Shown: positions 2,605 to 59,017 of the stretch, piece by piece
How positions within the stretch are numbered: the stretch's first letter is position 1
How the letters are laid out: every line of letters starts with the position of its first letter
Assembly: GCF_000242255.2 (NCBI RefSeq)
Contig: NC_017033.1
Location: forward strand, 1,922,001 to 1,986,000
DNA: 64,000 nucleotides
From: Frateuria aurantia DSM 6220
GTDB taxonomy: Bacteria; Pseudomonadota; Gammaproteobacteria; Xanthomonadales; Rhodanobacteraceae
Direction: 5' to 3'
Made by a program: the position numbers and the translations under genes
The notes under the pieces: generated by a model
The model's database searches: none
The model's input: the letters and a program-made list of their open reading frames with translations, nothing else
What the model was told of the DNA's origin: nothing

Positions 2605-3657
2605 ATGAAGCCTTTGGCGACCGACGCCGACGCCGCAACCTTGCTCGACACGCTGGGAAGACCGTTGCGTGACCTGCGGATATCCGTCATGGACCGCTGC
2701 AATTTCCGCTGCCCGTATTGCATGCCTGAGTCGAAATATGGCGAGCATTTCCGGTTTCTGGGAAACGACGAGCGTCTGAGCTATGCCGAGATCTACAGGA
2801 TTGCGCGGTTGGCGGCCAAGCTGGGTGTTCGCAAGCTGCGGATCACCGGCGGCGAGCCTCTGCTGCGGCCTGATCTCGCCGAGCTGATCGGTCAGTTGCG
2901 CTCCATTCCCGGGATTGCCGATATCGCCCTGACCACCAATGGGGTTCTGTTGCCACGCCAGGCCGAGCGTCTGAAGCAAGCCGGACTGGATCGCGTCACG
3001 ATCAGCCTGGACAGCCTTGATCCAACGGTTTTCGCGCGCATGAGCGGCGGAAAAGGAGACGTGAAAGACGTGCTGGCCGGTATTTCGGCCGCAGAGGCAG
3101 CGGATTTCGGCGGTGGCATCAAGATCAATATGGTGGTGCAGCGAGGCGTCAACGAGGCGGATGTGCTGGCCATGGCCGAGCATTTCCGTGGCAGCGGCCA
3201 TGTGGTCCGATTCATCGAATTCATGGACGTCGGCAACCGCAATGCATGGCAGGCATCCGGCGTGGTACCGTCGGCCGAACTGGTCCGGCGCATTGATGGC
3301 CGCTGGCCACTGCAGGCGGTGGAGTCGATGGATCGCAGTGCGGTGGCCACGCGCTGGCGCTATCAGGACGGCGCCGGCGAAATCGGTTTCATTTCATCGG
3401 TGAGCGCGCCATTCTGCGGCGGCTGCACACGGGCGCGGCTGTCTTCCGACGGCAAGCTCTATACCTGCCTGTTTGCCCAGACCGGCATGGATCTGCGCCA
3501 GCCGATACGCCAGCAGGCCAGTGATCTGGAGCTGCTGCAGCTGATCGGTGGACGCTGGCGCAATCGTGGTGATCGCTACAGCGAAGTCCGCGGCCTGCAG
3601 TTGCAGGAGTCGGCCGGCCCGACCCGGAAAATTGAAATGCATTACATCGGGGGCTGA
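2605..3657 (+). CDS. moaA: GTP 3',8-cyclase, molybdenum cofactor biosynthesis
   Basis: A 350-residue radical SAM enzyme that with MoaC converts GTP to cyclic pyranopterin monophosphate, the first step of molybdopterin synthesis. The N-terminal 4Fe-4S site is CNFRCPYC (CxxxCxxC) and the second cluster site near the C-terminus is CxxC-x13-C within a CGGCTRARLSSDG-type block. The protein ends in GG, as is usual for MoaA. The open frame extends back to 2494, but ATG 2605 has AGGAGA at 2594-2599. It begins a run of molybdenum genes (mobA, moeA, molybdo-oxidoreductase, fdhD). MoaC, MoaD and MoaE are not in this window. Confidence 0.95.
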   Translation: MKPLATDADAATLLDTLGRPLRDLRISVMDRCNFRCPYCMPESKYGEHFRFLGNDERLSYAEIYRIARLAAKLGVRKLRITGGEPLLRPDLAELIGQLRSIPGIADIALTTNGVLLPRQAERLKQAGLDRVTISLDSLDPTVFARMSGGKGDVKDVLAGISAAEAADFGGGIKINMVVQRGVNEADVLAMAEHFRGSGHVVRFIEFMDVGNRNAWQASGVVPSAELVRRIDGRWPLQAVESMDRSAVATRWRYQDGAGEIGFISSVSAPFCGGCTRARLSSDGKLYTCLFAQTGMDLRQPIRQQASDLELLQLIGGRWRNRGDRYSEVRGLQLQESAGPTRKIEMHYIGG

Positions 3658-3662
3658 AACCG

Positions 3663-4289
3663 ATGACTGCAAGCTTGCGCCGTCCTGACGATGCCGCCGA
3701 GACAACGGAGCGTGTGGCAGGTCTGTTGCTTGCCGGTGGATACAGTCGGCGAATGGGCAGGGACAAGGCAGGCATGATTTATCATGGCCGTGACCAGCTG
3801 CACCATGCTTTTGATCTGCTGCAGTCTCTGACCACGGCCTGTTATGTCGCCATTCGTGAAGATCAGCTTGCGGAAGACCATCGGTCCACATTGCCCTGCC
3901 TGCTAGATATCGCGGGTGTGGCAGGACCTGCCGCTGGATTGCTGGCTGCCCAGCGGAGGCACCCGGAAGCCAGCTGGCTGCTGCTGGCCTGCGACATGCC
4001 CTTGATGGATCGCTCGACGCTGCAAGCACTGCTGTTGGCGGCAAAGGTGGATCAGCAAGCCGCGGTGATCGCTTATGCAGCAGCAGATGGCAGGATCGAG
4101 CCGATGTGCTCGCTGTGGCGCCCAGCCAGCAAGGTCTGCCTGCAACGCGAGGCGACAACATCGAGAAACGGGTTGCGGCATATCGCCGAACAGTTGCGGA
4201 TCAGGCTGTTGCAGGCAGCTGAACCGGAACGTCTGGTCAATGCCAATACGCCGGACGAATCCGCTGCTATCCTGAGCCGATTGCAATAG
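3663..4289 (+). CDS. mobA: Molybdenum cofactor guanylyltransferase
   Basis: A 208-residue nucleotidyltransferase that attaches GMP to Mo-molybdopterin, giving the guanine dinucleotide cofactor used by DMSO-reductase-family enzymes. The N-terminal nucleotide loop LLLAGGYSRRMGRDKA (about residues 20-35) and the metal-binding LLACDMPLMD segment (about 113-122) are typical MobA motifs. It starts 5 bases after moaA. The product would serve the DMSO-reductase-type enzyme encoded three genes downstream. Confidence 0.93.
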   Translation: MTASLRRPDDAAETTERVAGLLLAGGYSRRMGRDKAGMIYHGRDQLHHAFDLLQSLTTACYVAIREDQLAEDHRSTLPCLLDIAGVAGPAAGLLAAQRRHPEASWLLLACDMPLMDRSTLQALLLAAKVDQQAAVIAYAAADGRIEPMCSLWRPASKVCLQREATTSRNGLRHIAEQLRIRLLQAAEPERLVNANTPDESAAILSRLQ

Positions 4290-6011: not shown

Positions 6012-8327
6012 GTGAGCGAGAAGACATCCACTTCCGAAACCGCCGGATCGGTTCCCGGCGTCAAGCCCTATGACGGCCCCGCCGGTGGCTGGGGGGCGCT
6101 GGGTGCGGTGGCACGTGCCGTCAAGGAACAGATGGCGGTCGGTCGCGAAGGCGCGGCCCTGCGCAAGGTCAACCAGCCCAACGGCTTCGACTGTCCAGGT
6201 TGTGCCTGGCCGGATCCCGATCACCATTCGACTTTTGAATTCTGCGAGAACGGCGCCAAGGCGGTGGCCTGGGAGGCCACCGCGAAGCGGGTGACACCGG
6301 CCTTCTTCGCCGAACATACAGTCAGCGAACTCTGGAACTGGTCGGATTTCGCGCTGGAAGGCGAGGGCAGGCTGACCGATCCGATGCGCTATGACGCGGC
6401 CAGCGACACGTTCCAGCCGGTGCCCTGGGACGAAGCTTTCGGCCAGATCGGTGCGGCCCTGCGAAACTTGCCCGAAGCCGATGCGGCCGAGTTCTATACC
6501 TCGGGCCGGGCATCCAATGAGGCGGCCTTTCTGTACCAGTTGTTTGTCCGCGCCTACGGTACCAACAATTTTCCCGACTGCTCCAACATGTGTCATGAGG
6601 CGACCAGTGTCGGCCTGCCGGCCTCGATCGGCGTGGGCAAGGGTACGGTGACACTGGCTGATTTCGATCACTGTGATGCCTTGTTCAGCTTCGGTCACAA
6701 CCCGGGCACCAACCACCCGCGCATGCTGGCGACGCTGCGCGAGGTCTCGAGGCGCGGGGTGCCGATCATTGCTTTCAATCCCCTGCGCGAGCGCGGACTG
6801 GAGCGATTCCTGTCGCCGCAGAGTCCGAAGGAGATGCTGACAGGCGATGCCACCGAGATCGCCAAAAGCTATTACCAGGTCAGGATCGGCGGCGATCTGG
6901 CCGTGCTGAAGGGGATGATGAAGTGGCTGGTCGAGGCTGATGCAGTCGACCTTGAGCAGGGTGGCAACGGGCTGCTGGATCGCGAGTTCATTGCTGAACA
7001 TACCGATGGCGTACAGGCCCTGCTTGATGATCTGCGGGACACCCGCTGGGACGACATTGTCAGCCGTTCCGGCCTGAGCCGTGCCGATATCGAGGCGGCG
7101 GCGAAAGTCTATGCGCGTGCCGAGCGTGTCATCATCTGCTATGGCATGGGGATGACCCAGCATCGCCACGGCACAGAGAACGTGCAGCAGATGGCCAATC
7201 TGCTGCTGTTGCGCGGCAATATCGGGCGCCAGGGCGCAGGCATCGCGCCGATTCGCGGACATTCCAACGTCCAGGGTGACCGGACGGTGGGGATCACCGA
7301 AAAGCCCGATGCGGCACTGATCGAGGGGATTCGGCGTACCTACGGCTTCACGCCTCCGGCAAAGCACGGTCATGATGCAGTGGCGGCAGTGAAGGCGATC
7401 AACGAAGGCCGTTCCAGAGCACTGATCTGCCTGGGCGGCAATCTGGCAGTGGCCATGCCAGATCCCGATCTCACCTTTGCCGCGATGCGCAAACTCGATC
7501 TGGCGGTCCATATCGCCACCAAGCTCAATCGCTCTCATCTGATTACCGCAGGGCAGAGTTTCATTCTGCCCTGTCTGGGTCGTACCGAACTCGACATGCA
7601 GGCCAGTGGTCCGCAGTCGGTGACGGTGGAGGACTCGATGTCGATGGTGCATGCCTCCCAGGGCGGGTTGCAGCCGGCCTCTCTGCAGCTGCGATCGGAA
7701 GTGGCCATCATCGGAGGTATCGCCCAGGCCGCCTTGCCGGAAAGCACTATCGACTGGCAGGGGATGGTCGACAATTATGATCTGATCCGGGATGGCATCG
7801 AATCGGTTTTCCCCGCGTTCAGGGATTTCAACGAGCGAGTGCGCAAGCCCCGCGGCTTCCGGCTCTATGTCGGTGCGTCGGAACGCGATTGGGGCGGGCC
7901 GGGGGCACGCGCGCATTTCCTGCTGGCGCCCGGTCTGGACGAGGATCCCGGATTGCCGGCCGATGCTCTGACGATGGCGACGATCCGTTCGCACGACCAG
8001 TACAACACCACCATCTACGGCCTCAACGACCGTTATCGCGGTATTGCCGGCCGGCGGGATATCGTATTCGTCAATGCCGATGACTTGAGTGCCCGCGGCC
8101 TGGCGCACGGCGATCTGGTCGATATCACGTCGCTGGCCGTGCCCGGCTTGTCCGATCCGCCGATGGTGAGGCGGTATACCGCTGTCGCTTACGATATTCC
8201 TCGCGGATCAGTCGCCATGTATTACCCTGAGGGCAACGGCCTGCTGCCCCTGGCTGCGCACGATCCGCAATCGGGAACACCGGCCTACAAGTCGATCCCC
8301 GTGGCGCTTCGCCCAGCCGCGGCCTGA
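6012..8327 (+). CDS. FdhF/YdeP-family molybdopterin oxidoreductase
   Basis: A 771-residue DMSO-reductase-superfamily enzyme of the YdeP type. A CPGCAWPD segment followed by FEFCENGAKA near the N-terminus (about residues 59-83) supplies the cysteines expected for a 4Fe-4S cluster. CSNMCHEATSVGLP (about 194-207) carries the cysteine position that ligates molybdenum, and bis-MGD-binding segments such as FGHNPGTNHPR follow. E. coli YdeP is linked to acid resistance and its substrate is not established. No signal peptide is seen, so it should be cytoplasmic. The start is GTG at 6012. fdhD follows after 6 bases, matching the need of these enzymes for sulfuration. Confidence 0.9.
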   Translation: MSEKTSTSETAGSVPGVKPYDGPAGGWGALGAVARAVKEQMAVGREGAALRKVNQPNGFDCPGCAWPDPDHHSTFEFCENGAKAVAWEATAKRVTPAFFAEHTVSELWNWSDFALEGEGRLTDPMRYDAASDTFQPVPWDEAFGQIGAALRNLPEADAAEFYTSGRASNEAAFLYQLFVRAYGTNNFPDCSNMCHEATSVGLPASIGVGKGTVTLADFDHCDALFSFGHNPGTNHPRMLATLREVSRRGVPIIAFNPLRERGLERFLSPQSPKEMLTGDATEIAKSYYQVRIGGDLAVLKGMMKWLVEADAVDLEQGGNGLLDREFIAEHTDGVQALLDDLRDTRWDDIVSRSGLSRADIEAAAKVYARAERVIICYGMGMTQHRHGTENVQQMANLLLLRGNIGRQGAGIAPIRGHSNVQGDRTVGITEKPDAALIEGIRRTYGFTPPAKHGHDAVAAVKAINEGRSRALICLGGNLAVAMPDPDLTFAAMRKLDLAVHIATKLNRSHLITAGQSFILPCLGRTELDMQASGPQSVTVEDSMSMVHASQGGLQPASLQLRSEVAIIGGIAQAALPESTIDWQGMVDNYDLIRDGIESVFPAFRDFNERVRKPRGFRLYVGASERDWGGPGARAHFLLAPGLDEDPGLPADALTMATIRSHDQYNTTIYGLNDRYRGIAGRRDIVFVNADDLSARGLAHGDLVDITSLAVPGLSDPPMVRRYTAVAYDIPRGSVAMYYPEGNGLLPLAAHDPQSGTPAYKSIPVALRPAAA

Positions 8328-8333
8328 GGGGCG

Positions 8334-9176
8334 GTGGTGCCTGTGGAAGCCGATTGCCCGGAGGCCTTGGCGGCCCGCTTGGAGGTGGTCCGTGCCGGGG
8401 GGAGCCACAGCGGCAGGGCCCGGGACTGGGTAAGCGCCGAGGTGCCCGTGGAAATCAGTTTCGACGGACAGGCTTTTGCGGTCATGATGGCCAGTCCTGC
8501 CGATCTGGAGGATTTCGCCTGCGGTTTTGCCCGCACCGAAGCTGGCATCGAAGATCTGGCGGCGATCCAGGCGATCACGGTCCAGCACCGGCTGGAAGGC
8601 ATCCAGCTCGATATCCGGCTGGTCGGTCAGACGGCGATGGCATTTGCGGAACGATTGCTGCCTGGCCGCAGCGGTTGCGGCCTCTGCGGCTCGCGCACGT
8701 TGGAGGATGTGGTGCGCCAGCCGGCCATGATCGAATCCGGCCCGGTCATGACGCATGCCGCCCTGGATCGGGCCTTGGCCGTGCTGCATGATGCTCAGCC
8801 CGCCGGTCAGCTGACCGGCTCCCTGCATGCCGCCGCCTGGTTTTCGATACAGGGCGAACTGCGACTGGTACGCGAAGATATTGGCCGCCATAATGCGCTG
8901 GACAAACTGCTGGGTTCGCTGTGGCGACAAGGGCTGTCGATGGACGAGGGCTTTCTGGTAGTGACCAGCCGGGCCAGCTATGAAATGGTGACCAAGGCGG
9001 CAACGGCCGGCATTGCCATCATGGCCGCCATCTCGGCGCCGACGGCACTGGCGGTCCGGCTGGCTGACAGTTGCGGCCTGACACTGATCGGTTTTGCCCG
9101 TCCTGGCCGTTGTCTGATCTATTCCCATGAGCATCGATTTCTTGATACCCCCGAGTTCGACAGTCCGCCCGCCTAA
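8334..9176 (+). CDS. fdhD: FdhD sulfurtransferase/chaperone for molybdo-oxidoreductases
   Basis: A 280-residue FdhD protein, which passes sulfur from a cysteine desulfurase to the molybdenum cofactor of formate-dehydrogenase-type enzymes. The cysteine loop CGLCG (about residues 119-123), which in E. coli FdhD is CxxC and essential, is present. The central ARED-type motif appears as LVREDIGRHNALDKLLG and the C-terminus has VTSRASYEMV and AISAPTALAV, all family landmarks. GTG at 8334 is the first start, but it has no strong ribosome-binding site, so the true start may be a few codons later. The gene overlaps the next reading frame by 50 bases. Confidence 0.92.
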   Translation: MVPVEADCPEALAARLEVVRAGGSHSGRARDWVSAEVPVEISFDGQAFAVMMASPADLEDFACGFARTEAGIEDLAAIQAITVQHRLEGIQLDIRLVGQTAMAFAERLLPGRSGCGLCGSRTLEDVVRQPAMIESGPVMTHAALDRALAVLHDAQPAGQLTGSLHAAAWFSIQGELRLVREDIGRHNALDKLLGSLWRQGLSMDEGFLVVTSRASYEMVTKAATAGIAIMAAISAPTALAVRLADSCGLTLIGFARPGRCLIYSHEHRFLDTPEFDSPPA

Positions 9177-10245
9177 ATGGCCTTCGACCCCGGTCGGGAG
9201 GTCTTGCCTTGATCGAATCCGGCTTTCCGCCCTGCGCCGGCTTGGGCCATGCCTGCTGATCCTGGTGCTGGGCTGGACCGGACTGGCGTCCGCGGCAGAG
9301 CGGACCGTGCAGGATCTGGCCGGCGAGACGGTGGCATTGCCGGCGCATCCGGCACGGATTGCCGATCTGTGGTTTGCCCACAACGAGCTGCTGGTGATGC
9401 TGGGTGGTGCCGGATGCATCAGGATGACCGTGGACCGGCCCGAGACCACGCCATGGATGTTCAAGCTGGCGCCGGTCCTGCATCAGGCCACCCAGATCCG
9501 CGGCCAGGCCAATCCCGAGGCCTTGCTTGCCGAAGGCATCGATCTTGCGTTCGTTTCTTCGCCACGCTCGGCCTTGCCGTACCGTCGTCTGGGCATTCCC
9601 ACGCTGGCCATGGAATTCCAGAATGCCGATGGTCTGATGCACGCCGTCAGTCTGACGGCCGATGCTCTCGGTTCGACGGCGGCGCAGGCGGTTGCCCGGC
9701 GTTACAATCAAGAGTTGCTGCAGGTGATGGCCGGCTTGAAGCAGCGACTGGGCGATCTGACCGAGGCGCAGCGTCCTCGCGTATTGCATATCGAATCCCT
9801 GGTGCCCTTGCGCGTCGATGGCGGCGGCAGCCTGATCGACCAGTGGATACATCTTGCCGGCGGTCGCAATGCCGCGGCCAGTGTGAAGGGCAGCAAACAG
9901 CCCGTCGATTTCGAACAGGTCCTGGCCTGGCAGCCCGACATCATCATTGTCGGTGCCTCGGCGGCCAAGATCGACCAGGTGGCGGCCAATGCCTGGTGGC
10001 GGTCACTGCCGGCGGTTCGCCAGGGCCGGGTCTATCGTGATCCGCTGGGGATCTTTCCCTGGGACCGATATGGCAGCGAATTCCTGCTGCAATTGCAGTG
10101 GGCGGCCAAGACCTTGCATCCGGAGCGATTCCGGGATCTGGACATGCCGGCCGTCGCACATCGCTTCTACGCCGACTATTTTCAGCATGACCTGAGCGAG
10201 GCCGATATCCGGCGGATGCTGCAGGGACTGCCTCCGGCATCGTGA
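9127..10245 (+). CDS. Periplasmic metal/oxyanion-binding protein of a BtuF/FecB-type ABC importer, MolA-like candidate
   Basis: A 372-residue substrate-binding protein. After a poorly supported N-terminus of about 33 residues comes a hydrophobic signal segment (ALRRLGPCLLILVLGWTGLA, about residues 36-55), so the true start may be internal. Mature sequence begins around AAERTVQDLAGETVALP, the typical opening of class III binding proteins (iron-siderophore, cobalamin, molybdate). Two lobes joined by a long helix are expected from the length. The following permease and ATPase overlap by four bases each. Since five molybdenum genes lie immediately upstream, a MolA-type molybdate/tungstate binder is the best contextual guess. 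Heme, cobalamin or ferric chelates cannot be excluded. Confidence 0.85.
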   Translation: MSIDFLIPPSSTVRPPKWPSTPVGRSCLDRIRLSALRRLGPCLLILVLGWTGLASAAERTVQDLAGETVALPAHPARIADLWFAHNELLVMLGGAGCIRMTVDRPETTPWMFKLAPVLHQATQIRGQANPEALLAEGIDLAFVSSPRSALPYRRLGIPTLAMEFQNADGLMHAVSLTADALGSTAAQAVARRYNQELLQVMAGLKQRLGDLTEAQRPRVLHIESLVPLRVDGGGSLIDQWIHLAGGRNAAASVKGSKQPVDFEQVLAWQPDIIIVGASAAKIDQVAANAWWRSLPAVRQGRVYRDPLGIFPWDRYGSEFLLQLQWAAKTLHPERFRDLDMPAVAHRFYADYFQHDLSEADIRRMLQGLPPAS

Positions 10246-11270
10246 GAGCCGTTTCCTTGTCTGCCGGTGGCTGGCTGGCACTGGCCGGGGGGATCTGGCT
10301 GGGCAGCTGCCTGATCGCCCTCTGCGCCGGCCGCTATCCGCTGGACTTGTCTGCCTTGGCCGGCTATGTCTGGCATCTGGCCGGAGGCCGCAGTGATCTG
10401 ACCGGCGCTCAGCTGCAGACCATGCATGCGCTGATCTACGAATCCCGATTGCCGCGGTTGCTGGGTGCCAGCATGATGGGGGCGGCCCTTGCTCTGGCTG
10501 GCGCTACCTATCAGTCGGCTTTTCGCAATCCGCTGGTATCACCCGGGCTGCTGGGCGTGCTCAGCGGGGCCGGCTTCGGTGCCGCGCTGGCCATCGTGCT
10601 GGGGCTTCCGGCCCTTGCCATTCAGGGCACAGCTTTTGCGGGAGGGCTGCTGGCCTCGGCGGTGGGCGTGGGCATCGCTCACCGGCTGGGCGGCGGCAGC
10701 CCGATGACCCTGATTTTTGGCGGACTGATCAGCAACGCCTTGTTCACCGCCTTGTTGTCGATTCTGAAATTCGTCGCCGACCCCGACCAGCAATTGTCCG
10801 ACATCGTGTTCTGGCTGCTGGGCAGCCTGGATCGCCTGAGCATGCCGGGCCTGCTGCCGCTGGCCTTGGTGCTGGTGCCGGGCTGCCTGCTCCTGTTGGC
10901 GATGGCACGATTGCTTGACCTGTTGACCCTAGGTGATGACGAGGCCAATGCCCTGGGCATTCCGGCGGTGCGACTGCGCTATCTGGTGATCGCGACGGCC
11001 ACCCTGATCGCGGCGATGACAGTGGCCGCCGCCGGCATCATCGGTTGGCTGGGCCTGATCGTGCCGCATGTCACCCGTTTGCTGGTCGGGCCTCAGCATC
11101 GGCGGATGATGCCGGTGGCGGCCTTGTTGGGCGCCAGTTTTCTGGTGCTGGCCGATACCTTGTCGCGCAGCCTCAGCAGCACCGAGATTCCGGTCGGCAT
11201 CATGACAGAACTGGCTGGTGCCCTGAGTCTGCTGGCTGTATTGCATATCATTCGGCGGTATCTGTGGTGA
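10242..11270 (+). CDS. FecCD/BtuC-type ABC transporter permease, MolB-like candidate
   Basis: A 342-residue, very hydrophobic protein with about nine to ten membrane segments. The FecCD signature is clear: SRLPRLLGASMMGAALALAGATYQSAFRNPLVSPGLLG near residues 68-105 and the C-terminal GLIVPHVTRLLVGPQHRRMMP block that contacts the ATPase. Two copies would form the inner-membrane channel. The start is GTG at 10242, overlapping the binding-protein stop (GTGA), so the genes are translationally coupled. In Haemophilus influenzae the MolBCA importer of this same architecture carries molybdate, and the molybdenum genes upstream make that the leading hypothesis. Confidence 0.9.
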   Translation: MRAVSLSAGGWLALAGGIWLGSCLIALCAGRYPLDLSALAGYVWHLAGGRSDLTGAQLQTMHALIYESRLPRLLGASMMGAALALAGATYQSAFRNPLVSPGLLGVLSGAGFGAALAIVLGLPALAIQGTAFAGGLLASAVGVGIAHRLGGGSPMTLIFGGLISNALFTALLSILKFVADPDQQLSDIVFWLLGSLDRLSMPGLLPLALVLVPGCLLLLAMARLLDLLTLGDDEANALGIPAVRLRYLVIATATLIAAMTVAAAGIIGWLGLIVPHVTRLLVGPQHRRMMPVAALLGASFLVLADTLSRSLSSTEIPVGIMTELAGALSLLAVLHIIRRYLW

Positions 11271-12016
11271 GCCTGCTTGAAGTCGATGCGATCAGCTATG
11301 CCTTGGGTGGGCGGCCGGTGCTGGATCAGGTCAGCCTTGCACTGGAGGCAGGCGATCTGGTCGGTCTGCTGGGGCCCAACGGCGCCGGCAAGTCCAGTTT
11401 GCTGCGGCTGATGATGGGGCTGGCCCGTCCTGCGACCGGGCATATCCGGCTGCACGGGCGGGACCTCGGCCACTGGAGCCGGATGGCGATGGCCGCCGAG
11501 GTCGGCTATGTACCGCAAGCTCATGTGGCGGTCTTTCCCTATCCGGTGGTTGATGTCGTGGCCATGGGCCGTTCGGTCCAGCACGGTCTGTGGCGATCAC
11601 CCCGCCAGACGGATCGCGATGCGGTGGCATCCGCACTGGAGCAGCTCGGCATTGCCCATCTGGCCAGGCGCGCCTATACCGAACTGTCCGGCGGCGAGCG
11701 ACAGAGCGTGCTGCTGGCTCGCGCCATGGCTCAGGGCTGCCGGATTCTGTTGCTGGATGAGCCGACCACAGGCCTGGATTTCGGACAGCAGCAGCGGCTC
11801 TACACCCTGCTGCAGCTATTGAGCCGGCAGGGCTATGCGATTGTCGCCAGCAGTCACGATCCTTATCGTGCCCGAGAGGTATTCGATCAGGCGCTGATGC
11901 TGCGGGCCGGTGCCGTGGTCGGATACGGTCCCAGCCAGGACTTGCTGGATGATGCCGCCATACGGGCGCTGTATGGCTTGAGCGAGCCGCTCCGGACCGG
12001 ACCGGCCATCGACTGA
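11267..12016 (+). CDS. ABC transporter ATPase of the BtuD/FecE type, MolC-like candidate
   Basis: A 249-residue ATP-binding subunit. Walker A is GPNGAGKSS (about residues 36-44), the signature motif is LSGGERQSV, Walker B is ILLLDEPTTGLD and the switch histidine follows in ASSHDP. The frame is open far upstream inside the permease gene, but GTG at 11267 overlaps the permease stop (GTGA) and gives the usual N-terminus. It completes the binding protein-permease-ATPase set and ends the molybdenum block. A GC-rich hairpin follows the stop. Confidence 0.92.
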   Translation: MSLLEVDAISYALGGRPVLDQVSLALEAGDLVGLLGPNGAGKSSLLRLMMGLARPATGHIRLHGRDLGHWSRMAMAAEVGYVPQAHVAVFPYPVVDVVAMGRSVQHGLWRSPRQTDRDAVASALEQLGIAHLARRAYTELSGGERQSVLLARAMAQGCRILLLDEPTTGLDFGQQQRLYTLLQLLSRQGYAIVASSHDPYRAREVFDQALMLRAGAVVGYGPSQDLLDDAAIRALYGLSEPLRTGPAID

Positions 12017-12607: not shown

Positions 12608-13138
12608 ATGGTCACCGTCGAAAAGGAACGCGCATCCTGGCAGCAGCCCGAAGACAGCAGCTTTGCCGATTGGCTGGCCGGGCGGGTGGCTCGACTGCAG
12701 ACACGCAGGTACGACTGGGACGCCCTGAAATTTCAGGCGGATTACGACCCACGGTATCGAAGGGCCCAGATGCGCTATGTGGGCACCGGTGGTACCGGAG
12801 TGGCCAGCGACAGCAATACGGTTCCCGCCGGCGCCTTCACCTTCTCCACCATGGTGGTACCGGCCGGGCATATCGGGCCCAGTCACATCCATGTCGATGT
12901 CGAGGAAATCTTTTTCGTCTTGCGCGGCAAGATGCAGGTGGTCTGCGAACGCGATGGCGAGCGCTGGGAAGCGGAGCTGGGCGAACGGGATCTGATTTCG
13001 GTACCGCCCGGCGTCTACCGTTCCGAAACCAATATCGGCGAAGAAGACGCCTTGATGTGCGTCATGCTGGGCTCGCCACGACCCGTCACGCCGACCTATC
13101 CGCCGGACTCGCCGCTGTCTCGCATCAAACGGCAGTGA
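12608..13138 (+). CDS. Cupin-domain protein (first gene of catabolic operon)
   Basis: A 176-residue single-domain cupin. Cupin motif 1 is seen as GPSHIHVDVEEIFFVLRGK (about residues 97-115), with the HxH and glutamate metal ligands. Motif 2 reads GERDLISVPPGVYRSETN, in which the fourth ligand histidine is replaced (PPGVYR instead of PxGxxH). Such proteins bind Fe or Mn and act as dioxygenases, isomerases or sensors. The role here is unknown, but the position at the head of an eight-gene set argues for a catabolic step. AGAGGAG precedes the ATG at a good distance. The next gene starts one base after its stop. Confidence 0.85.
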   Translation: MVTVEKERASWQQPEDSSFADWLAGRVARLQTRRYDWDALKFQADYDPRYRRAQMRYVGTGGTGVASDSNTVPAGAFTFSTMVVPAGHIGPSHIHVDVEEIFFVLRGKMQVVCERDGERWEAELGERDLISVPPGVYRSETNIGEEDALMCVMLGSPRPVTPTYPPDSPLSRIKRQ

Positions 13139-13139
13139 G

Positions 13140-14045
13140 ATGAGCACTGAAGCAGAAGGACACGGGTTCAGCGGAGCAGCCGCCAGCCGCCTTCACGAAC
13201 GGCTGGCAGGCCTGCCACAAGCAGAAGCGGCAGGCATCCGCTACCTGCAGGTGGCAGGCGATGCATTGGATGGATTGCCGCTGGTTCTGCTGCACGGCAT
13301 CGGATCGGGCGCGGCATCGTGGCTTCCGCTGATCCTCGCCGTCGGATCGTCACGCCGGATGCTGGCCTGGAACCAGCCGGGATATGCGGGTTCGGGCGCC
13401 TTGCCCCGGACCCGCGTGAAGGCAACCGACTATGCCAAGGTGCTGATCTGTTGGCTGGATGCGATAGGCATCGACCGTTGCCAGCTGGTAGGCCATTCGC
13501 TGGGCGCCTTGATTGCCGCTGCCGCAGCGGCCAGGCATCCGCAGCGGTTCAGTTCGTTGTTGCTGATTTCTCCGGCGCAGGGCTATGCCCGGTTACCGGC
13601 CGAGGAACGCCAGCGTCGGCTGTTTGAGCGCATGGAGCGGATGCGCCGCCAGGGGCCTGCGGCGATGGCGGCGGAAAGGGCACCCCAGCTGTTGTCGGCG
13701 CAGGCTTCAGAGGAAGCCAGGGCCTGGGTGGAGTGGAACATGGCCCGGCTGGACCCTGCCGGTTACGCTCAGGCCCTGCAGGTGCTGGGGCAGGGGGATA
13801 TCGTGGCGGATCTGAAGTTCTGGCAGGGACCGATGCATATCGCGGTGGGTACCGAGGACCGGATCACCCCGTTGGCCGGGTGTGCCGAACTGGCGGATGC
13901 GCTGGGCTGTGCATTGAGCCTGATTCCGGGGGCTGGCCATGCCAGTCCGGTGGAAGCGCCTGCGGTTTGCGCCGGACTTGTCGACCAAATGGAGGCACTC
14001 GGGAAAGAGGGGCAGAGCTTCACCCGATCATCTCCTGCGGGCTGA
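13140..14045 (+). CDS. Alpha/beta-fold hydrolase
   Basis: A 301-residue alpha/beta hydrolase. The oxyanion region LLHGIGSGAASW (about residues 50-61), the nucleophile elbow GHSLGA (about 119-124), an acid in GTEDRITP (about 238-245) and a histidine in GAGHASPVEAP complete a Ser-Asp-His triad. This layout is common among C-C bond hydrolases of meta-cleavage pathways and among esterases and lactonases. It begins one base after the cupin stop. With an extradiol-type VOC protein later in the operon, hydrolysis of a ring-cleavage product is plausible, but the substrate cannot be read from sequence. Confidence 0.88.
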   Translation: MSTEAEGHGFSGAAASRLHERLAGLPQAEAAGIRYLQVAGDALDGLPLVLLHGIGSGAASWLPLILAVGSSRRMLAWNQPGYAGSGALPRTRVKATDYAKVLICWLDAIGIDRCQLVGHSLGALIAAAAAARHPQRFSSLLLISPAQGYARLPAEERQRRLFERMERMRRQGPAAMAAERAPQLLSAQASEEARAWVEWNMARLDPAGYAQALQVLGQGDIVADLKFWQGPMHIAVGTEDRITPLAGCAELADALGCALSLIPGAGHASPVEAPAVCAGLVDQMEALGKEGQSFTRSSPAG

Positions 14046-14191
14046 GAAAGGCGGGCCGGAACCCGCAACGGAACGGGGCGCTGCGGCGATCGACGGTTCC
14101 AGGCGCGGAGAGGCGCCGCAATGCTCCCGGGAAAGGGCCTCCGATGCCGGGATTCTTCATGGATGTGCAGCTTGACGAGCAGGAGCGCGAG

Positions 14192-14989
14192 ATGAAGCTT
14201 GAGTCCTACGCCCAAGGTCAGGTGGCGGTGGTCACCGGGGGGAGTGCAGGTATCGGACTGGCTACGGCCGGACTCTTTCTGGCTTCGGGTGCCGCCGTCG
14301 CGATCTGCGGTCGTGATCCGGAGCGCCTGGCGGCGGCCGAAGATGAATTGCGGCAACGCCATCCGGGAGCGCACCTGCTGGGTTTCTGTTGTGACGTGCT
14401 GGATGGCGAGGCCGTCGAGAAGTTTGCGCAGGCCGTGGCGGCCCGTTACGGTCGGATCGACATATTGATCAACAATGCCGGGGAAGGGCGCAGCTCGACC
14501 TTTTCTGATACCTCTGACGAGGCCTGGCGGCGGGAGCTGGAACTGAAGTATTTCAGCATCATCCGGCCGGTCCGGGCATTCCTGCCCTGGTTGAAACAGT
14601 CTTCGAGTCCCTCGATCACCTGCGTGAGTTCCCTGCTTGCGGTCCAGCCGGAACCGCATATGGTGGCGACATCGTCCGCCCGTGCAGGCACCCTGAACCT
14701 GATCAAGTCCCTGGCCGCGGAACTGGCGCCCTTCCGGATCCGGGTCAATGCCATTCTGGTCGGCATCGTCGAATCCGGGCAGTGGCGCCGCCGCTTCCGG
14801 GCACAGCATGAACAGCCGGACTGGGCGGAGTGGAGTCACGGGCTGGCCTTGCAGAAAGGCATTCCATGGGGGCGGTTTGGCCATCCGGACGAAGCGGCGA
14901 GGGCATTGTATTTTCTTGCCACGTCCATGTCGTCCTACACAACGGGAAGCACCGTCGATGTCTCAGGAGGACTTGCACGCCATGTCTGA
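14192..14989 (+). CDS. Atypical short-chain dehydrogenase/reductase lacking the YxxxK catalytic motif
   Basis: A 265-residue SDR-fold protein. The NAD(P)-binding TGGSAGIGLA loop (about residues 15-24), the NNAGEG segment (about 93-98) and the serine of CVSSLLA are present. At the place where classical SDRs carry YSASK, this protein reads TSSARAG, so the catalytic tyrosine and lysine are replaced by threonine and arginine. The C-terminal VDVSGG end is normal. ATG 14192 has AGGAG at 14181-14185, although an earlier in-frame ATG exists at 14144. The gene overlaps the next by eight bases. It may use a different mechanism or bind cofactor without classical redox catalysis. Confidence 0.85.
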   Translation: MKLESYAQGQVAVVTGGSAGIGLATAGLFLASGAAVAICGRDPERLAAAEDELRQRHPGAHLLGFCCDVLDGEAVEKFAQAVAARYGRIDILINNAGEGRSSTFSDTSDEAWRRELELKYFSIIRPVRAFLPWLKQSSSPSITCVSSLLAVQPEPHMVATSSARAGTLNLIKSLAAELAPFRIRVNAILVGIVESGQWRRRFRAQHEQPDWAEWSHGLALQKGIPWGRFGHPDEAARALYFLATSMSSYTTGSTVDVSGGLARHV

Positions 14990-16667
14990 CGCAGCCCCCA
15001 ACCCCGTTCGCGCCACGGTCGCCGAGGTGATCGCGGCCTTTATCGAGCAATGCCAGGTCCATACCGTATTCGGCGTCATCTCGATCCACAATATGCCGAT
15101 GCTGGATGCCATCCATCGTCGTGGCCGCATCCGCTATGTGGGAGCGCGCGGCGAGGCGGGTGCCGTCAACATGGCCGATGGCCATGCACGCGTCAGCGGC
15201 GGACTCGGCGTCGTCTTCACCAGCACGGGTACTGCAGCAGGCAATGCGGCAGGGGCCTTGGTCGAGGCGCTGACGGCGGGGACGCCGCTGCTGCATCTCA
15301 CCGGGCAGATCGAAACCCCTTTTCTGGACCGTGACCTGGCTTATATCCATGAAGCGCCTGCGCAGCTGGCGATGCTGCAGGCCGTCTCCAAGGCCGCTTA
15401 TCGGGTGGCTTCGGCATCGACGGCGCTGGCTGTTGTCCGCGAGGCTGTGCGAGTAGCCCTGACTGCACCGGCCGGCCCGGTCTCGGTGGAACTTCCGATT
15501 GATATCCAGGCCACTGAGATCGACTGGCCGGTGGATATCGCACCCGCCCCGGTCCGGACATGGCCGGTCGACAACGACCGCGTGTTGCAGCTCGCCGAGC
15601 GTCTGGTCAAGGCCCGTCGACCGCTGTTGTGGCTGGGTGGCGGATCGCGGGCGGCGGGTGAAGCCGTGGGCCGCTTGCTGGCGCTGGGCTTCGGCGTGGT
15701 GACCAGTGTCCAGGGGCGTGGCGTGGTCGCTGAAGATCATACGCAGTCGTTGGGGGCCTTCAATGTGCACCCTGCCGTCGAACGCTTCTACCAGACTTGC
15801 GATGCCCTGCTGGTGGTGGGTTCCCGCCTGCGCGGCAACGAAACCCTGACCTATCGGCTGGCACTGCCTACGCCCTTGTACCGTATTGATGCCAATCCGC
15901 TGGCCGATCAGCGCGGCTATCCCAATGCCTTGTTCCTGCAGGGCGATGCCTCGGCTGTGCTGCATCAGCTGGCCGATGCCTTGCAGGGCCGCCTGCGTAT
16001 CGATCCCGACTTCCTGCCGGCACTGGCGGCGGCGCGGGCCGAGGCCGAGGCCGGCGTGCAGGCCGGTCTGGGTCCCTATGCCGGGCTGGTGACCAGCCTG
16101 CGGCGGCACGCAGGGAGCGATTTCAACTGGGTGCGCGATGTCACCATCTCCAACAGCACCTGGGGCAATCGTCTGCTTCCGTTGCATCAGCCTCGGGCCG
16201 GCGTGCATGCGCTGGGCGGTGGCATCGGGCAGGGCATGCCGATGGCGATCGGAGCAGCCTTGGCCGGAACGGCCGCGCGGACCTGGTGTCTGGTCGGTGA
16301 CGGCGGGCTGATGCTCAATGTCGGCGAGCTGGCCACCGCCGTGCAGGAGCGCGCCGACGTGGTGATCCTGCTGATGAACGATCAGGCCTATGGCGTGATC
16401 AGGAATATCCAGGATGCAGTCTATGGTGGCCGGCACGCCTATGTCGAGCTGCAGCAGCCGGACTTCGGTCAGCTCTGTCGCAGCCTTGGCCTGCCCTGGC
16501 ATCGCATCGATGCCATCGAGCAGGCCGATGCGGTGTTCCAGGCAGCCCTGGTCGAGAAGGGGCCGGTGCTGATCGAGGTGGATATGTGCGGCATCGGCGA
16601 TTTCAGCGTCGCCTTTGCCGGTCCCCCGGTGAAGCCTGCGGTTGTATCGGAGCCGACTGATGAATGA
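14982..16667 (+). CDS. Thiamine-diphosphate enzyme of the acetolactate synthase/benzoylformate decarboxylase group
   Basis: A 561-residue ThDP enzyme with three domains: N-terminal Pyr domain with the activating glutamate in GARGEAGAVNMADG (about residues 52-65), central domain, and C-terminal PP domain with the diphosphate motif GDGGLMLNVGELATAVQ ending in LLMND (about 438-469). Such enzymes decarboxylate 2-oxo acids, ligate aldehydes or cleave C-C bonds. AGGAGG at 14965-14970 lies inside the end of the preceding gene, and ATG 14982 was chosen for it. It overlaps both neighbours by eight bases, a sign of tight co-translation. Conversion of a 2-oxo acid to an aldehyde for the downstream ALDH is a reasonable inference. 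Confidence 0.9.
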   Translation: MSDAAPNPVRATVAEVIAAFIEQCQVHTVFGVISIHNMPMLDAIHRRGRIRYVGARGEAGAVNMADGHARVSGGLGVVFTSTGTAAGNAAGALVEALTAGTPLLHLTGQIETPFLDRDLAYIHEAPAQLAMLQAVSKAAYRVASASTALAVVREAVRVALTAPAGPVSVELPIDIQATEIDWPVDIAPAPVRTWPVDNDRVLQLAERLVKARRPLLWLGGGSRAAGEAVGRLLALGFGVVTSVQGRGVVAEDHTQSLGAFNVHPAVERFYQTCDALLVVGSRLRGNETLTYRLALPTPLYRIDANPLADQRGYPNALFLQGDASAVLHQLADALQGRLRIDPDFLPALAAARAEAEAGVQAGLGPYAGLVTSLRRHAGSDFNWVRDVTISNSTWGNRLLPLHQPRAGVHALGGGIGQGMPMAIGAALAGTAARTWCLVGDGGLMLNVGELATAVQERADVVILLMNDQAYGVIRNIQDAVYGGRHAYVELQQPDFGQLCRSLGLPWHRIDAIEQADAVFQAALVEKGPVLIEVDMCGIGDFSVAFAGPPVKPAVVSEPTDE

Positions 16668-17487
16668 GACCGCGAAATCCTCTCGCCTCGCCACGCGGGT
16701 GGCCTTGATCGGCTTCGGTGCGGTAGGGCGGCACCTGTTCGACGCCTTGCGCGATGATGCCTCGGTGCGGATCGCCCAGATCATCACCCGGCCGGCAGCC
16801 CATCCCGACATCCGACAACAGGTGGGGCCGACGGTGGAGGTCGTGGGCCACGTCTCGGAGCTGGCCCGCCCGCCGGACTACGCCCTTGAATGCGCCGGGC
16901 ATGCCGCTCTCCTGGATCATGTGCTGCCGCTGCTGCGCAAGGGGGTTGATTGCGGGGTGATTTCAACCGGTGGCCTGGCCGATGCCGCGATCTTCGAAGC
17001 CTTGCTGGAGGCGTCGCGAGACGGCGGTGGGCGGCTGGAGGTCCTCGCCGGAGCCGTGGGTGCCATCGATGTCTTGGCGGCCGGTTTTTATGGGGAGCTG
17101 CAGTCCGTGCAGTATGAGGGTCGCAAACCGCCGCGAAGCTGGCTCGGCACACCGGCCGAACAGCGATGTGACCTGACCGGATTGAAACAGGCCTTCACAT
17201 TCTTCGACGGCAGCGCACGCGAGGCCGCCAGGGACTATCCGAAAAATGCCAATGTCACGGCCACCGTTGCCTTGGCAGGTCTGGGCTTCGAAGCGACACG
17301 GGTCCGCCTTACGGCCGATCCCCGGCTGGACGGCAATCAGCACCTTGTCCATGCACAAGGCGCATTCGGCGAGTTCCATTTCCAGTTGCAGGGCCGGACC
17401 CTGCCCGACAATCCCAGGACATCGATGCTTGCCGCGTTGAGCGCCTTGCGCGCGCTGCGCAACCGCAAGGCGCCCTATATCGTCTGA
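16660..17487 (+). CDS. Aspartate dehydrogenase-like NAD(P)-dependent oxidoreductase
   Basis: A 275-residue protein of the NadX/AspDH family. The Rossmann motif VALIGFGAVGRHL lies near the N-terminus (about residues 14-26), ECAGHAAL and VISTGGLAD follow, and the C-terminal half has YPKNANVTATVALAGLGF and LPDNPRTSMLA, both typical of this family. Known members oxidatively deaminate L-aspartate or reductively aminate oxaloacetate. Members encoded in catabolic clusters of this type have no established substrate. ATG 16660 overlaps the ThDP gene (ATGAATGA). Its presence suggests that the pathway handles an amino or imino intermediate. Confidence 0.85.
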   Translation: MNETAKSSRLATRVALIGFGAVGRHLFDALRDDASVRIAQIITRPAAHPDIRQQVGPTVEVVGHVSELARPPDYALECAGHAALLDHVLPLLRKGVDCGVISTGGLADAAIFEALLEASRDGGGRLEVLAGAVGAIDVLAAGFYGELQSVQYEGRKPPRSWLGTPAEQRCDLTGLKQAFTFFDGSAREAARDYPKNANVTATVALAGLGFEATRVRLTADPRLDGNQHLVHAQGAFGEFHFQLQGRTLPDNPRTSMLAALSALRALRNRKAPYIV

Positions 17488-17506
17488 GTCAGCCCAGGAG
17501 CCACTC

Positions 17507-18997
17507 ATGTCGTATCACGCTTCCAGTTTGTTGCCCACGACGGAGCTGTATATCGCCGGTCATTGGCGGGCGGGACATGGGCCGGTCACGGCCTCGCACA
17601 ATCCGGCAGACGGCACGGTGAATGCCGAGTGGCGGATGGCTGACGTCACCGATGTCGACGAAGCGGTTCAGGCCGCCGATCTGGCCTGGCGCCAGACCGA
17701 CTGGGCCGGACTGTATCCGCATCAACGGGCTCGTGTGCTGTTGAACATCGCGCAGCTGATCGAAAGCCATCAGGAGGCCCTGGCCCAACTGCAGCGCCGC
17801 GACAATGGCAAACCCATTCGGGAGGCGCGTGGACTGGTCGCCAGCGCCGCCGCCACCTTCCGCTATTTTGCGGCCTGTCTGGAGTCGACGGATGAGGCAC
17901 TGACCGCTCCGCGCGGCGAGTTTCTGACCTTGAGCATGCACCAGCCACTGGGCGTGGTCGCGGCCATCACCCCATGGAATGCGCCGGTAGCTTCGGATGC
18001 GCAAAAGCTCGCCCCCGCGTTGGCCGCCGGCAATGCCGTGGTACTGAAACCCGCCGAGCTGACCCCGCTGGTGTCGCTGGCTCTGGCTCGTCTGTGCGAG
18101 CAGGCGGGTGTGCCGCCAGGGGTGGTATCGGTCGTTCCGGGCCGCGGATCGCTGATCGGTGATGCCTTGGTCAGACATCCTCTGGTCCGCAAGGTGACGT
18201 TTACCGGCGGTACCGAGGTCGGCCGCGGCATCGCCCGGATTGCCGCTGAACGGCTGATTCCGGCCTCGCTGGAACTGGGCGGAAAATCCCCGACCATCGT
18301 ACTGGAAGATGCGGATCTGGATCATGCCGTCAACGGCGTGCTGTACGGCATCTTCGGCTCGTCCGGACAGTCCTGCATCGCCGGTTCCCGCCTGCTGGTC
18401 CAGCGGTCCGTCCGGCAGGACTTCGTGGGCCGGCTGATCCGGCGGGCAGGGCAGTTGAGGATGGGTGACCCGGCCGATGAGCGCACCCAGCTGGGGCCCT
18501 TGATCAGCGAGGCGCACCGGGCCTCGGTCGAGCAACATGTCGCCGAGGCACTGGCAGAAGGGGGAGAGCTGCTTTGCGGTGGGCAACGACCGCAAGGCGG
18601 GAGCCTCGCGCATGGTTATTTTTATCCCCCTACGGTATTCGCCGGTCTGGACAACCAGTCCGCGCTGTGCAGGCAGGAGGTCTTTGGCCCGGTGCTGGCG
18701 ATTCTGCCCTTCGAGGACGATAACGAGTTGCTGGCGATCGCCAATGACAGCGTCTTCGGCCTGGCCGCCGGTATCTGGAGCCGCGACTATCAACGCGCCT
18801 GGCGGCTGGCCGTCGCCTTGCAGGCCGGCACCGTCTGGATCAATACCTACAAGCAATTCTCCATCTCGACGCCCTTCGGCGGCTGGAAAGACAGCGGACT
18901 GGGTCTGGAAAAGGGACGCGAGAACATGCGCGGCTATCAACAGCAGAAAAGCATTTTTCTGGGCCTGAATGCCGCGCCTCTGGCCTGGGCGGATTGA
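17507..18997 (+). CDS. NAD(P)-dependent aldehyde dehydrogenase
   Basis: A 496-residue ALDH-superfamily enzyme that oxidises an aldehyde to an acid. Visible landmarks are ITPWNAPVASDAQKLAPALAAGN (about residues 157-179), the FTGGTEVG nucleotide loop, LELGGKSP with the general-base glutamate (about 258-265) and GQSCIAGSRLLV with the catalytic cysteine (about residue 292). The C-terminal TPFGGWKDSGLGLEKG block is also typical. AGGAG precedes the ATG. The gene follows the AspDH-like gene by 19 bases and precedes the VOC gene by 12, so it belongs to the same operon and may take the aldehyde made by the ThDP enzyme. Confidence 0.93.
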   Translation: MSYHASSLLPTTELYIAGHWRAGHGPVTASHNPADGTVNAEWRMADVTDVDEAVQAADLAWRQTDWAGLYPHQRARVLLNIAQLIESHQEALAQLQRRDNGKPIREARGLVASAAATFRYFAACLESTDEALTAPRGEFLTLSMHQPLGVVAAITPWNAPVASDAQKLAPALAAGNAVVLKPAELTPLVSLALARLCEQAGVPPGVVSVVPGRGSLIGDALVRHPLVRKVTFTGGTEVGRGIARIAAERLIPASLELGGKSPTIVLEDADLDHAVNGVLYGIFGSSGQSCIAGSRLLVQRSVRQDFVGRLIRRAGQLRMGDPADERTQLGPLISEAHRASVEQHVAEALAEGGELLCGGQRPQGGSLAHGYFYPPTVFAGLDNQSALCRQEVFGPVLAILPFEDDNELLAIANDSVFGLAAGIWSRDYQRAWRLAVALQAGTVWINTYKQFSISTPFGGWKDSGLGLEKGRENMRGYQQQKSIFLGLNAAPLAWAD

Positions 18998-19009
18998 AGG
19001 GGAAAGATC

Positions 19010-19978
19010 ATGAGCGTGCTTGGCATCGAACAAATCACCTACGGCGTCACCGACCTGGAGGAATGTCGCCGTTTCCTGCTTGACTGGGGGTTGCGCGAAC
19101 TCCCCTCCAGCGACGACCGCTATCGCTATGAGACCTTGAACGGCGCCACGGTGGTACTGGCGGACATCACCGACCCGCATTTGCCCGAGGCCATCGAGCC
19201 GGGCCCGACCTTGCGCGAGGTGACCTGGGGTGTCGCCGGTCCGGCCGAACTGGAGTCGCTGGCCCACCGATTGAGGGAGCAGCCGGGCTTCTATCGTGAA
19301 CCCTTGGCCGTCGGTTGTCTGGATACCAATGGTCTGGCGATCCGCATCGAGCCGAGCCGGCGTCGCGCGCTGGATATCACCGGTTCGCCGGCCAATGTCT
19401 GGGGACGGCCACAACGGATCGATCGCGCCAGCCCGGTCTATGCGCGGGCCGAGCCGATCGAGATCGGCCACGTGGTGTTCTTCACGCGATGTCTTGAGGA
19501 ACAGGTTGCCTTCTATCGGGATCGCCTGGGCTTCGTCGTATCCGATCGTTATACCGGCCAACGTGGAACCTTTCTGCGGGCGGCAGCGCAAGGCGGTCAT
19601 CATGATCTGTTCCTGCTTCCGTTGCCGGATGGCCGGCGCGGACTCAACCATGTCGCCTTCACGGTGCGCGATATCCACGAAGTCTTCGGCGGCGGCCTGC
19701 ATATCAGCCGGAAGGGCTGGACCACCCAGTTGGGGCCGGGCCGACACCCGATTTCCTCGGCGTATTTCTGGTATTTCAGAAACCCCGCCGGTGGTCTGAT
19801 CGAGTACTACGCTGACGAAGATGTACTGACCGGTGCCTGGCAGGCCCGCGAGGTGGAGCCCGGTCCGACAGTGTTTGCCGAATGGGCGATTGATGGGGGA
19901 CTGGACGGCCATACCCGCCGACAGGTGCATGCCGCCGCGCCTGCCGCGCGGTTCATGACGGATATCGAGCCAGGCTGA
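19010..19978 (+). CDS. Two-domain VOC protein, extradiol (type I) ring-cleavage dioxygenase-like
   Basis: A 322-residue protein with two vicinal-oxygen-chelate domains (about residues 1-120 and 145-270). The C-terminal domain keeps the 2-His-1-Glu iron site of BphC-type extradiol dioxygenases: a histidine in EIGHVVFFT, one in LNHVAFTV and a glutamate in GGLIEYYAD. The N-terminal domain lacks this triad, as is normal in the family. Length and layout match catechol-type 2,3-dioxygenases, but specificity cannot be assigned. It is the main hint that the operon degrades an aromatic or enediol compound. Confidence 0.85.
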   Translation: MSVLGIEQITYGVTDLEECRRFLLDWGLRELPSSDDRYRYETLNGATVVLADITDPHLPEAIEPGPTLREVTWGVAGPAELESLAHRLREQPGFYREPLAVGCLDTNGLAIRIEPSRRRALDITGSPANVWGRPQRIDRASPVYARAEPIEIGHVVFFTRCLEEQVAFYRDRLGFVVSDRYTGQRGTFLRAAAQGGHHDLFLLPLPDGRRGLNHVAFTVRDIHEVFGGGLHISRKGWTTQLGPGRHPISSAYFWYFRNPAGGLIEYYADEDVLTGAWQAREVEPGPTVFAEWAIDGGLDGHTRRQVHAAAPAARFMTDIEPG

Positions 19979-57706: not shown

Positions 57707-57782
<76 letters not shown>

Positions 57783-57892
57783 TTGAATTGTACCGGGACA
57801 TGCATAGTTGCATTCCCTTGTTCCATCTGGAGAGGCTTACTACCCTCCGCGACAGAACCACCTCTAGAGGTGAAGTCTTTCGACTCGATGTA

Positions 57893-57969
57893 TGGTGCGC
57901 CCGGAGAGATTCGAACTCCCGACCACCAAGTTCGTAGCCTGGTACTCTATCCAACTGAGCTACGGGCGC
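57893..57969 (-). tRNA. tRNA-Arg (ACG), copy 1
   Basis: Begins GCGCCCGTAGCTCAGTTGG on the minus strand, with anticodon loop CTACGAA (anticodon ACG, normally edited to ICG), a TTCGAAT T-loop and an encoded CCA end. It is identical in sequence to the copies at 58338 and 59018. Confidence 0.97.
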
Positions 57970-58034
57970 ACTTCAAACTGCAGGAGCTCAAACTCAGCTC
58001 CCTGAAATCCATACCCGCAGGCGAATTTCAAAAA

Positions 58035-58110
<76 letters not shown>

Positions 58111-58127
58111 GTAAAACTTGTTGTTAT

Positions 58128-58204
58128 TGGGGTGGACGATGGGACTTGAACCCACGACATCCGGAATCACAATCCGGTACTCTAACCAGCTGAGCTACGC
58201 CCAC
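58128..58204 (-). tRNA. tRNA-His (GTG), copy 1
   Basis: Minus-strand sequence GTGGGCGTAGCTCAGCTGG with anticodon loop TTGTGAT (anticodon GTG), a TTCAAGT T-loop and a CACCCCA 3' end. The extra G-1 is encoded at base 58205 and pairs with the discriminator C. Confidence 0.96.
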
Positions 58205-58337
58205 CAAAAACCGGGTATTCCCATGGCAGATGCGTGGTTTCCCACAGCAATCACACCCCGCCCTGACGACAAATCATCCCGAAAGACGCTTCTTGCCAGC
58301 AGCTGACCATGACGACGAATCAACATGATCCTTGAAA

Positions 58338-58414
58338 TGGTGCGCCCGGAGAGATTCGAACTCCCGACCACCAAGTTCGTAGCCTGGTACTCTATCCAAC
58401 TGAGCTACGGGCGC
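58338..58414 (-). tRNA. tRNA-Arg (ACG), copy 2
   Basis: Same sequence as copy 1, anticodon ACG, encoded CCA. It is the 3'-terminal gene of the second Arg-Lys-His cassette when read on the plus strand. Confidence 0.97.
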
Positions 58415-58478
58415 ACTTCAAACTGAAGGAGCTCAAAATCGCTCCCTGAAATCCAATCCCGCAGGCGGATTTCAAAAA

Positions 58479-58554
<76 letters not shown>

Positions 58555-58571
58555 GTAAAACGTATTGTTAT

Positions 58572-58648
58572 TGGGGTGGACGATGGGACTTGAACCCACG
58601 ACATCCGGAATCACAATCCGGTACTCTAACCAGCTGAGCTACGCCCAC
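58572..58648 (-). tRNA. tRNA-His (GTG), copy 2
   Basis: Same sequence as the tRNA-His at 58128, anticodon GTG, with encoded G-1 at 58649 and CCA end. Confidence 0.96.
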
Positions 58649-58671
58649 CAAAAACCATGTTGTAACGACTG

Positions 58672-58748
58672 TGGCGCGCCCGACAGGAATCGAACCTGCA
58701 ACCCTCGGCTTAGAAGGCCGATGCTCTATCCGGTTGAGCTACAGGCGC
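58672..58748 (-). tRNA. tRNA-Arg (TCT)
   Basis: Minus strand begins GCGCCTGTAGCTCAACCGG, has anticodon loop CTTCTAA (anticodon TCT), a TTCGATT T-loop and encoded GCCA end. It decodes AGA/AGG and is present once in the array. Confidence 0.96.
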
Positions 58749-58773
58749 ATTCACCTTGACGAGAACGCCTGCC

Positions 58774-58850
58774 TGGTCGGGGCAGAGGGATTCGAACCCC
58801 CGACATCCAGCTCCCAAAGCTGGCGCTCTACCAGACTGAGCTATACCCCG
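58774..58850 (-). tRNA. tRNA-Pro (TGG)
   Basis: Minus strand begins CGGGGTATAGCTCAGTCTGG, with anticodon loop TTTGGGA (anticodon TGG), a TTCGAAT T-loop and encoded ACCA end. Its C1 start is normal for tRNA-Pro. Confidence 0.96.
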
Positions 58851-59017
58851 AATTCCAAACTTTAAGCCAATGAACCAGCTGAAGTTCCGAAACCCTTTCG
58901 AGCGACTTGCCGTCCAGTCAATTCATCTTGCAACATCTTGCCATCATCAGAAACTTCTGATTCCAGCCTTTTGAAATCCATAGGATTATCAAGAGGCCTG
59001 TCAGCTTTCCTGATCAA

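Follow-up and report, generated by a model that had tools for sequence, protein, structure and literature searches.

A MolABC-like importer behind the molybdenum-cofactor genes of Frateuria aurantia: a probable stand-in for ModABC

What does the ATP-binding cassette (ABC) importer encoded directly behind the molybdenum-cofactor (Moco) genes of Frateuria aurantia DSM 6220 bring into the cell? Its three genes occupy positions 9127-12016 of a 64,000-nucleotide stretch of contig NC_017033.1 (positions 1,922,001 to 1,986,000, forward strand), which we call the window and number from its first letter. An earlier note on this DNA had proposed a MolABC-like molybdate uptake candidate. The absence of modABC from the genome, the relationship to MolB and MolA and the phylogenetic profile in Acetobacteraceae, all read from sequence, support that proposal, and we consider it quite probable that the genes encode a type II molybdate importer, a MolABC-like variant that takes the place of ModABC. 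The importer genes are:

9127..10245, plus strand: periplasmic substrate-binding protein (Peripla_BP_2, MolA-like group); ATG to TGA; PF01497 70.0 bits, gathering cut-off 27.5
10242..11270, plus strand: FecCD-type permease (MolB/BtuC-like); GTG to TGA; PF01032 251.3 bits, cut-off 26.5
11267..12016, plus strand: ABC ATPase (MolC/BtuD-like); GTG to TGA; PF00005 113.8 bits, cut-off 25

All three components of a type II (FecCD/BtuCD) ABC importer score above the Pfam gathering cut-offs and are encoded together; the importer is complete and of an ordinary kind, and chance can be left aside. Two overlaps of four bases join the genes, at 10242-10245 between binding protein and permease and at 11267-11270 between permease and ATPase, and the open reading frame (ORF) of the binding protein opens at 9127, 50 bases inside fdhD, which ends at 9176; the overlaps and the start within fdhD had both been described in the earlier note and are borne out by the ORFs and the sequence. 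An alternative in-frame start that keeps the signal peptide, TTG at 9142, likewise falls within fdhD, and the exact start is not fixed. The genes upstream were placed by Pfam and NCBIfam in the order that the note had read (moaA-mobA-moeA-small protein-molybdo-oxidoreductase-fdhD):

2605..3657, plus strand: moaA; TIGR02666 374.1 bits, above cut-off; the mechanical ORF runs from 2494, the model starts at ORF residue 50, and 2605 is the likely start
3663..4289, plus strand: mobA-like gene; PF12804 99.2 bits
4323..5594, plus strand: moeA-like gene; PF03453 100.8 bits
5591..5929, plus strand: ORF of 112 amino acids, sharing four bases with moeA; without a match in Pfam or NCBIfam
6012..8327, plus strand: FdhF/YdeP-family molybdopterin oxidoreductase; TIGR01701 964 bits, above cut-off
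8334..9176, plus strand: fdhD, sulfurtransferase for molybdenum oxidoreductases, whose 3' end contains the start of the binding-protein ORF; TIGR00129 212.7 bits, above cut-off

From moaA through the ATPase gene every gap on this one strand is 82 bases or less, so a single transcript is likely, which would carry the importer genes together with moaA-mobA-moeA, the oxidoreductase gene and fdhD. A scan for promoters and terminators at the operon boundaries gave no signal above shuffled sequences. The F. aurantia genome, a single contig of 3,603,458 bases, carries a second molybdenum cluster at 2.038-2.047 Mb with moaD (by reading only), moaE, a moaC/moaB fusion, XdhC-like and MocA-like genes and moeA, and the same cluster encodes a two-subunit enzyme of the xanthine-dehydrogenase family as a second molybdoenzyme; the full Moco pathway is present. 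The modA model (TIGR01256) found no match in this genome. The modB model, which also detects strong CysT/W-like permeases in genomes G014 and G017, gave nothing above its cut-off here and only weak matches of at most 45.9 bits, which by reading sit in a sugar importer and in the Pst operon. FecCD permeases number two in the genome, namely the window copy and one in a heme locus with HemS and a TonB receptor. The window importer is the only predicted dedicated molybdate importer found in F. aurantia, sulfate carriers of the SulP, CysZ and PiT types, TupA and WtpA not having been searched for directly. Because it stands at the end of a Moco operon in a genome in which the usual molybdate pump is absent, it probably brings in the molybdate of F. 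aurantia.

The nearest known counterpart is MolBC-A of Haemophilus influenzae (HI1470-HI1472), a type II molybdate/tungstate importer which is used at high molybdate in a bacterium that also has ModABC (PMC4031551). Both systems consist of the same three protein families, but the binding proteins are only about 24% identical, the window family has FPWDRYG and other motifs without counterpart in the aligned MolA, and the window copy lies inside a Moco operon in a genome lacking ModABC. The low-affinity role beside ModABC known from Haemophilus, whose lower affinity the earlier note had mentioned, therefore does not transfer to F. aurantia; it belongs to the situation in Haemophilus more than to the proteins themselves. 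ModABC itself would serve the same role, but is a type I importer of an unrelated family. Among proteins of solved structure, HI1471 MolB (2nq2) came closest to the permease (E 3.6e-55). In the PDB profile search the binding protein matched 4ovk, 4hn9, MolA (3psa, HI_1472) and 4pag in that order, with BtuF and HmuT far behind (E 6e-26 for MolA against about 2e-6 for these two); MolA was thus the best-scoring characterised binding protein, ranking below 4ovk and 4hn9. The AlphaFold2 model of the binding protein (mean predicted local distance difference test score 85, residues 1-55 at low confidence) gave structural Z scores of 33.9 with 4ovk, 31.6 with MolA 3psa (root-mean-square deviation 2.0 over 294), 31.0 with 4hn9, 29.1 with YiuA and 28.8 with Helicobacter pylori CeuE. 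Judged from model and sequence, the protein would allow molybdate as a ligand, without singling it out.

A pattern that a siderophore, heme or cobalamin importer would not explain was observed across 200 Acetobacteraceae genomes. We counted moaA over the model cut-off, took E<=1e-25 as the limit for the binding-protein family and E<=1e-17 for modA; at the latter threshold fragmented modA could be missed. moaA was present in 174/200 genomes, the family in 30/200 and modA in 125/200. Every one of the 30 family genomes had moaA and 27 of them lacked modA; among moaA-positive genomes, modA was present in 3 and absent in 27 of those with the family, versus 111 and 33 of the 144 without it (Fisher p=5e-12, uncorrected for ancestry), and the split was 3 to 17 in the 20/30 family genomes with an adjacent permease (p=1e-7, likewise uncorrected). 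Where modA was absent, moaA was found in 27/27 genomes with the family and in 33/48 without it (p=6e-4, with the same reservation). The family occurred in 0/26 genomes with moaA below cut-off, a group that includes three partial matches (G593, G642 and G653). Among genomes of 2.7 Mb or less, a size cut chosen post hoc, 8 of the 18 with moaA had the family only and 4 had modA only, and the 12 without moaA had neither.

A Moco-specific context was met again in Limosilactobacillus fermentum, where relatives of all three genes (identity 32% for the binding protein, 44% for the permease and 36% for the ATPase) lie on record CP033372.1, which carries the label of a 760-kb plasmid. Permease and ATPase again overlap by four bases, some 740 bases separate the permease from moaE-moaD-moaA, and the next 20 kb bring narK, mobA, moaC, moeA, moaB, a HesA/MoeB/ThiF protein, narH and narJ. 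The binding protein is encoded about 7 kb away and retains 41/49 residues invariant in the family alignment; no match to the panel modA was found in the stretch examined. This Moco/nitrate-reductase island lies within 655000-725000 of the record (L202/L203), and its moaA is split across two overlapping reading frames. Since the operon, the missing ModABC, the profile and this second lineage agree, molybdate is the best-supported substrate, on circumstantial grounds. By analogy with MolBC-A, the periplasmic protein would capture molybdate, probably tungstate too, and pass it to a permease dimer of the BtuCD/FecCD fold powered by two ATPase subunits; through the predicted shared transcript, molybdenum uptake, cofactor synthesis, insertion and the enzyme would be made together.

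Several observations weigh against molybdate and have to be set beside this. Shared ancestry is controlled in none of the profile p values, and 33/174 moaA-positive Acetobacteraceae have neither the family nor modA. When 50 named genomes were examined, modA scored above cut-off in 7/35 acetic acid bacteria, in the one Beijerinckia (1/1) and in every gammaproteobacterium (14/14), so that the last carry the family along with modA. The family to which F. aurantia itself belongs gives an uninformative profile, with modA present in 77/147 genomes and absent from 70/147, and the binding-protein family in only 3. No Moco riboswitch was detected in the 64-kb window at the gathering threshold. The iron-catechol protein YiuA and the nickel protein CeuE of H. 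pylori stand merely 2.5-3 Z units under MolA, and 4ovk and 4hn9, at or above the level of MolA, have no ligand known to us. YiuA and CeuE belong to the cluster A-2 binding proteins, which match the window protein in fold and length class (Z 28-29) and bind iron chelates or nickel (PMC5683015); the basic triad of YiuA is Arg64, Arg165 and Arg223 (PMC5683015), and alignments did not settle whether the window protein has it.

The genomic context of the homologues adds to these points. A genome scan returned 179 relatives, and the best 80 named loci were kept for counting (44 from acetic acid bacteria, 35 from gammaproteobacteria and one from Beijerinckia). Within 10 kb of the homologue, genes of the Moco/mod panel with at least 35% identity were present in 0/80 loci; Moco-gene synteny was accordingly rejected as a general rule, the Limosilactobacillus record being the one place besides the window where it was seen. 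A TonB receptor adjoins the gene in 32/35 gammaproteobacterial loci, 21 of these with a permease, and in genome G014, from the same family as the window, a binding-protein copy of 45% identity is separated from its permease by a TonB receptor. The earlier note had taken homologues consistently beside TonB-receptor genes as grounds against molybdate, and the gammaproteobacteria fit that description; acetic acid bacteria do not, with a TonB receptor at 3 of their 44 loci (27 have a permease nearby without the receptor and 14 have neither), nor does the Gram-positive island. The Beijerinckia locus has the permease alone. The TonB-linked gammaproteobacterial proteins form a supported tree group with the window protein outside it, although the tree gives the latter no firm placement. 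An FdhF/YdeP relative was present within 10 kb in 6/80 loci. In Raoultella, Klebsiella and Enterobacter (L091, L094, L110, L115, L121 and L131) the distance between such a relative (54-58% identity) and the pair of TonB receptor and binding protein is 4-9 kb.

We consider it unlikely that the genes encode an iron-siderophore, cobalamin or heme importer whose location behind fdhD is accidental. Such import is typical of the general family, the TonB receptors adjoining the homologues are annotated as siderophore receptors, and with only two FecCD permeases in the genome the import of B12 or siderophores would otherwise have no carrier of that type. The vitamin B12 importer BtuCDF does have the type II architecture and a similar permease, but the NCBIfam cut-offs were missed by the window proteins (BtuF 31.1 against 234; BtuC 166.1 against 334 with NF003001 and 204.9 against 461 with NF007081), and no cobalamin riboswitch was found in the window at the gathering threshold. 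As for heme, the score with the HmuTUV-type ATPase model NF010068 was 209, below the cut-off of 261, and the HemS/TonB locus lies elsewhere in the genome. The far closer profile match to MolA than to BtuF or HmuT argues against these substrates too, and no TonB receptor, the usual partner of a siderophore importer, turned up when the genes at 1-20 kb of the window were read or annotated, the rest of the genome not having been searched for receptors. Such an importer would also leave the modA/moaA pattern and the Limosilactobacillus island unexplained.

The TonB-linked relatives are the main difficulty for molybdate import, and may mean that those bacteria use a chelate form. If this held for the whole family, the importer would carry a molybdenum chelate, such as a catecholate-type molybdophore complex, which the gammaproteobacterial TonB receptor brings across the outer membrane, and in F. 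aurantia the receptor would be located elsewhere or lost. The motifs AD-W-AH and FPWDRYG, common to TonB-linked and stand-alone binding proteins, suggest one ligand, and the abundance of receptors in the gammaproteobacterial loci is in keeping with such a route. A relative of 30% identity in genome G017 (contig C115, 1-20000, L045) belongs to a larger cluster that begins with ModE and ends with modCBA and that also holds DUF364, a methyltransferase-like protein, DUF2478 and three TonB receptors, which makes this cluster a lead for TonB-dependent molybdenum uptake. Even so, we hold chelate import by the family at large to be improbable, given the scarcity of TonB receptors next to the acetic acid bacterial copies and at 1-20 kb of the window, and given a Gram-positive copy that has no outer membrane to traverse. 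On pFER3 of Paracoccus ferrooxidans (L059), a TonB receptor, a methyltransferase and two sets of permease, ATPase and binding protein are followed by a DUF364 protein, an arrangement resembling that of G017. Import of another metal or oxyanion (nickel, vanadate or tungstate only) is very unlikely: CeuE is a structural relative and tungstate is chemically close to molybdate, but two distant lineages have the genes in a Moco-specific context and the Acetobacteraceae profile tracks moaA and modA.

Returning to molybdate import, its reach may extend beyond F. aurantia, a species whose strain Kondo 67T was formerly called 'Acetobacter aurantius' (PMC3910546). We tentatively suggest, at somewhat less than even chances, that the main importer of molybdate in acetic acid bacteria, in Frateuria and in some lactobacilli, where it would have replaced ModABC, is a widespread and largely unnamed type II subfamily with the motifs AD-W-AH and FPWDRYG in its binding protein, and that in gammaproteobacteria the same protein is coupled to a TonB receptor for chelated molybdenum. 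A survey of molybdenum use, which counted ModABC, WtpABC and TupABC only and whose main text does not mention MolA, recorded 278 of 3683 molybdenum-using bacteria without a known transporter, suggesting further systems (PMC6147048). The subfamily, if this is true, would explain part of these, and the binding-protein family is a concrete candidate for the missing transporter, carried as it is by 27 of the 60 moaA-positive, modA-negative Acetobacteraceae sampled; its annotation as 'iron' or 'siderophore' protein may be wrong. By title and start of abstract, no description of the family or of Mol in acetic acid bacteria, or in lactobacilli, was found, which is not proof of its absence from print.

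A foreign origin of the three importer genes was also considered and set aside; their GC content (64-66%) and third-position GC content (74-78%) are near the values of their neighbours. On the same strand, 3' of the importer, positions 12608-19978 of the window encode a cupin, an alpha/beta hydrolase, a short-chain dehydrogenase/reductase (by reading), a thiamine-diphosphate enzyme, an aspartate-dehydrogenase-like protein, an aldehyde dehydrogenase and a glyoxalase-fold dioxygenase, a set that looks like a catabolic operon. Further along, at 57707-59094 on the minus strand, the window carries ten tRNA genes, among which Lys(ctt), Arg(acg) and His(gtg) occur in repeated copies, which looks like the duplication of a small unit.

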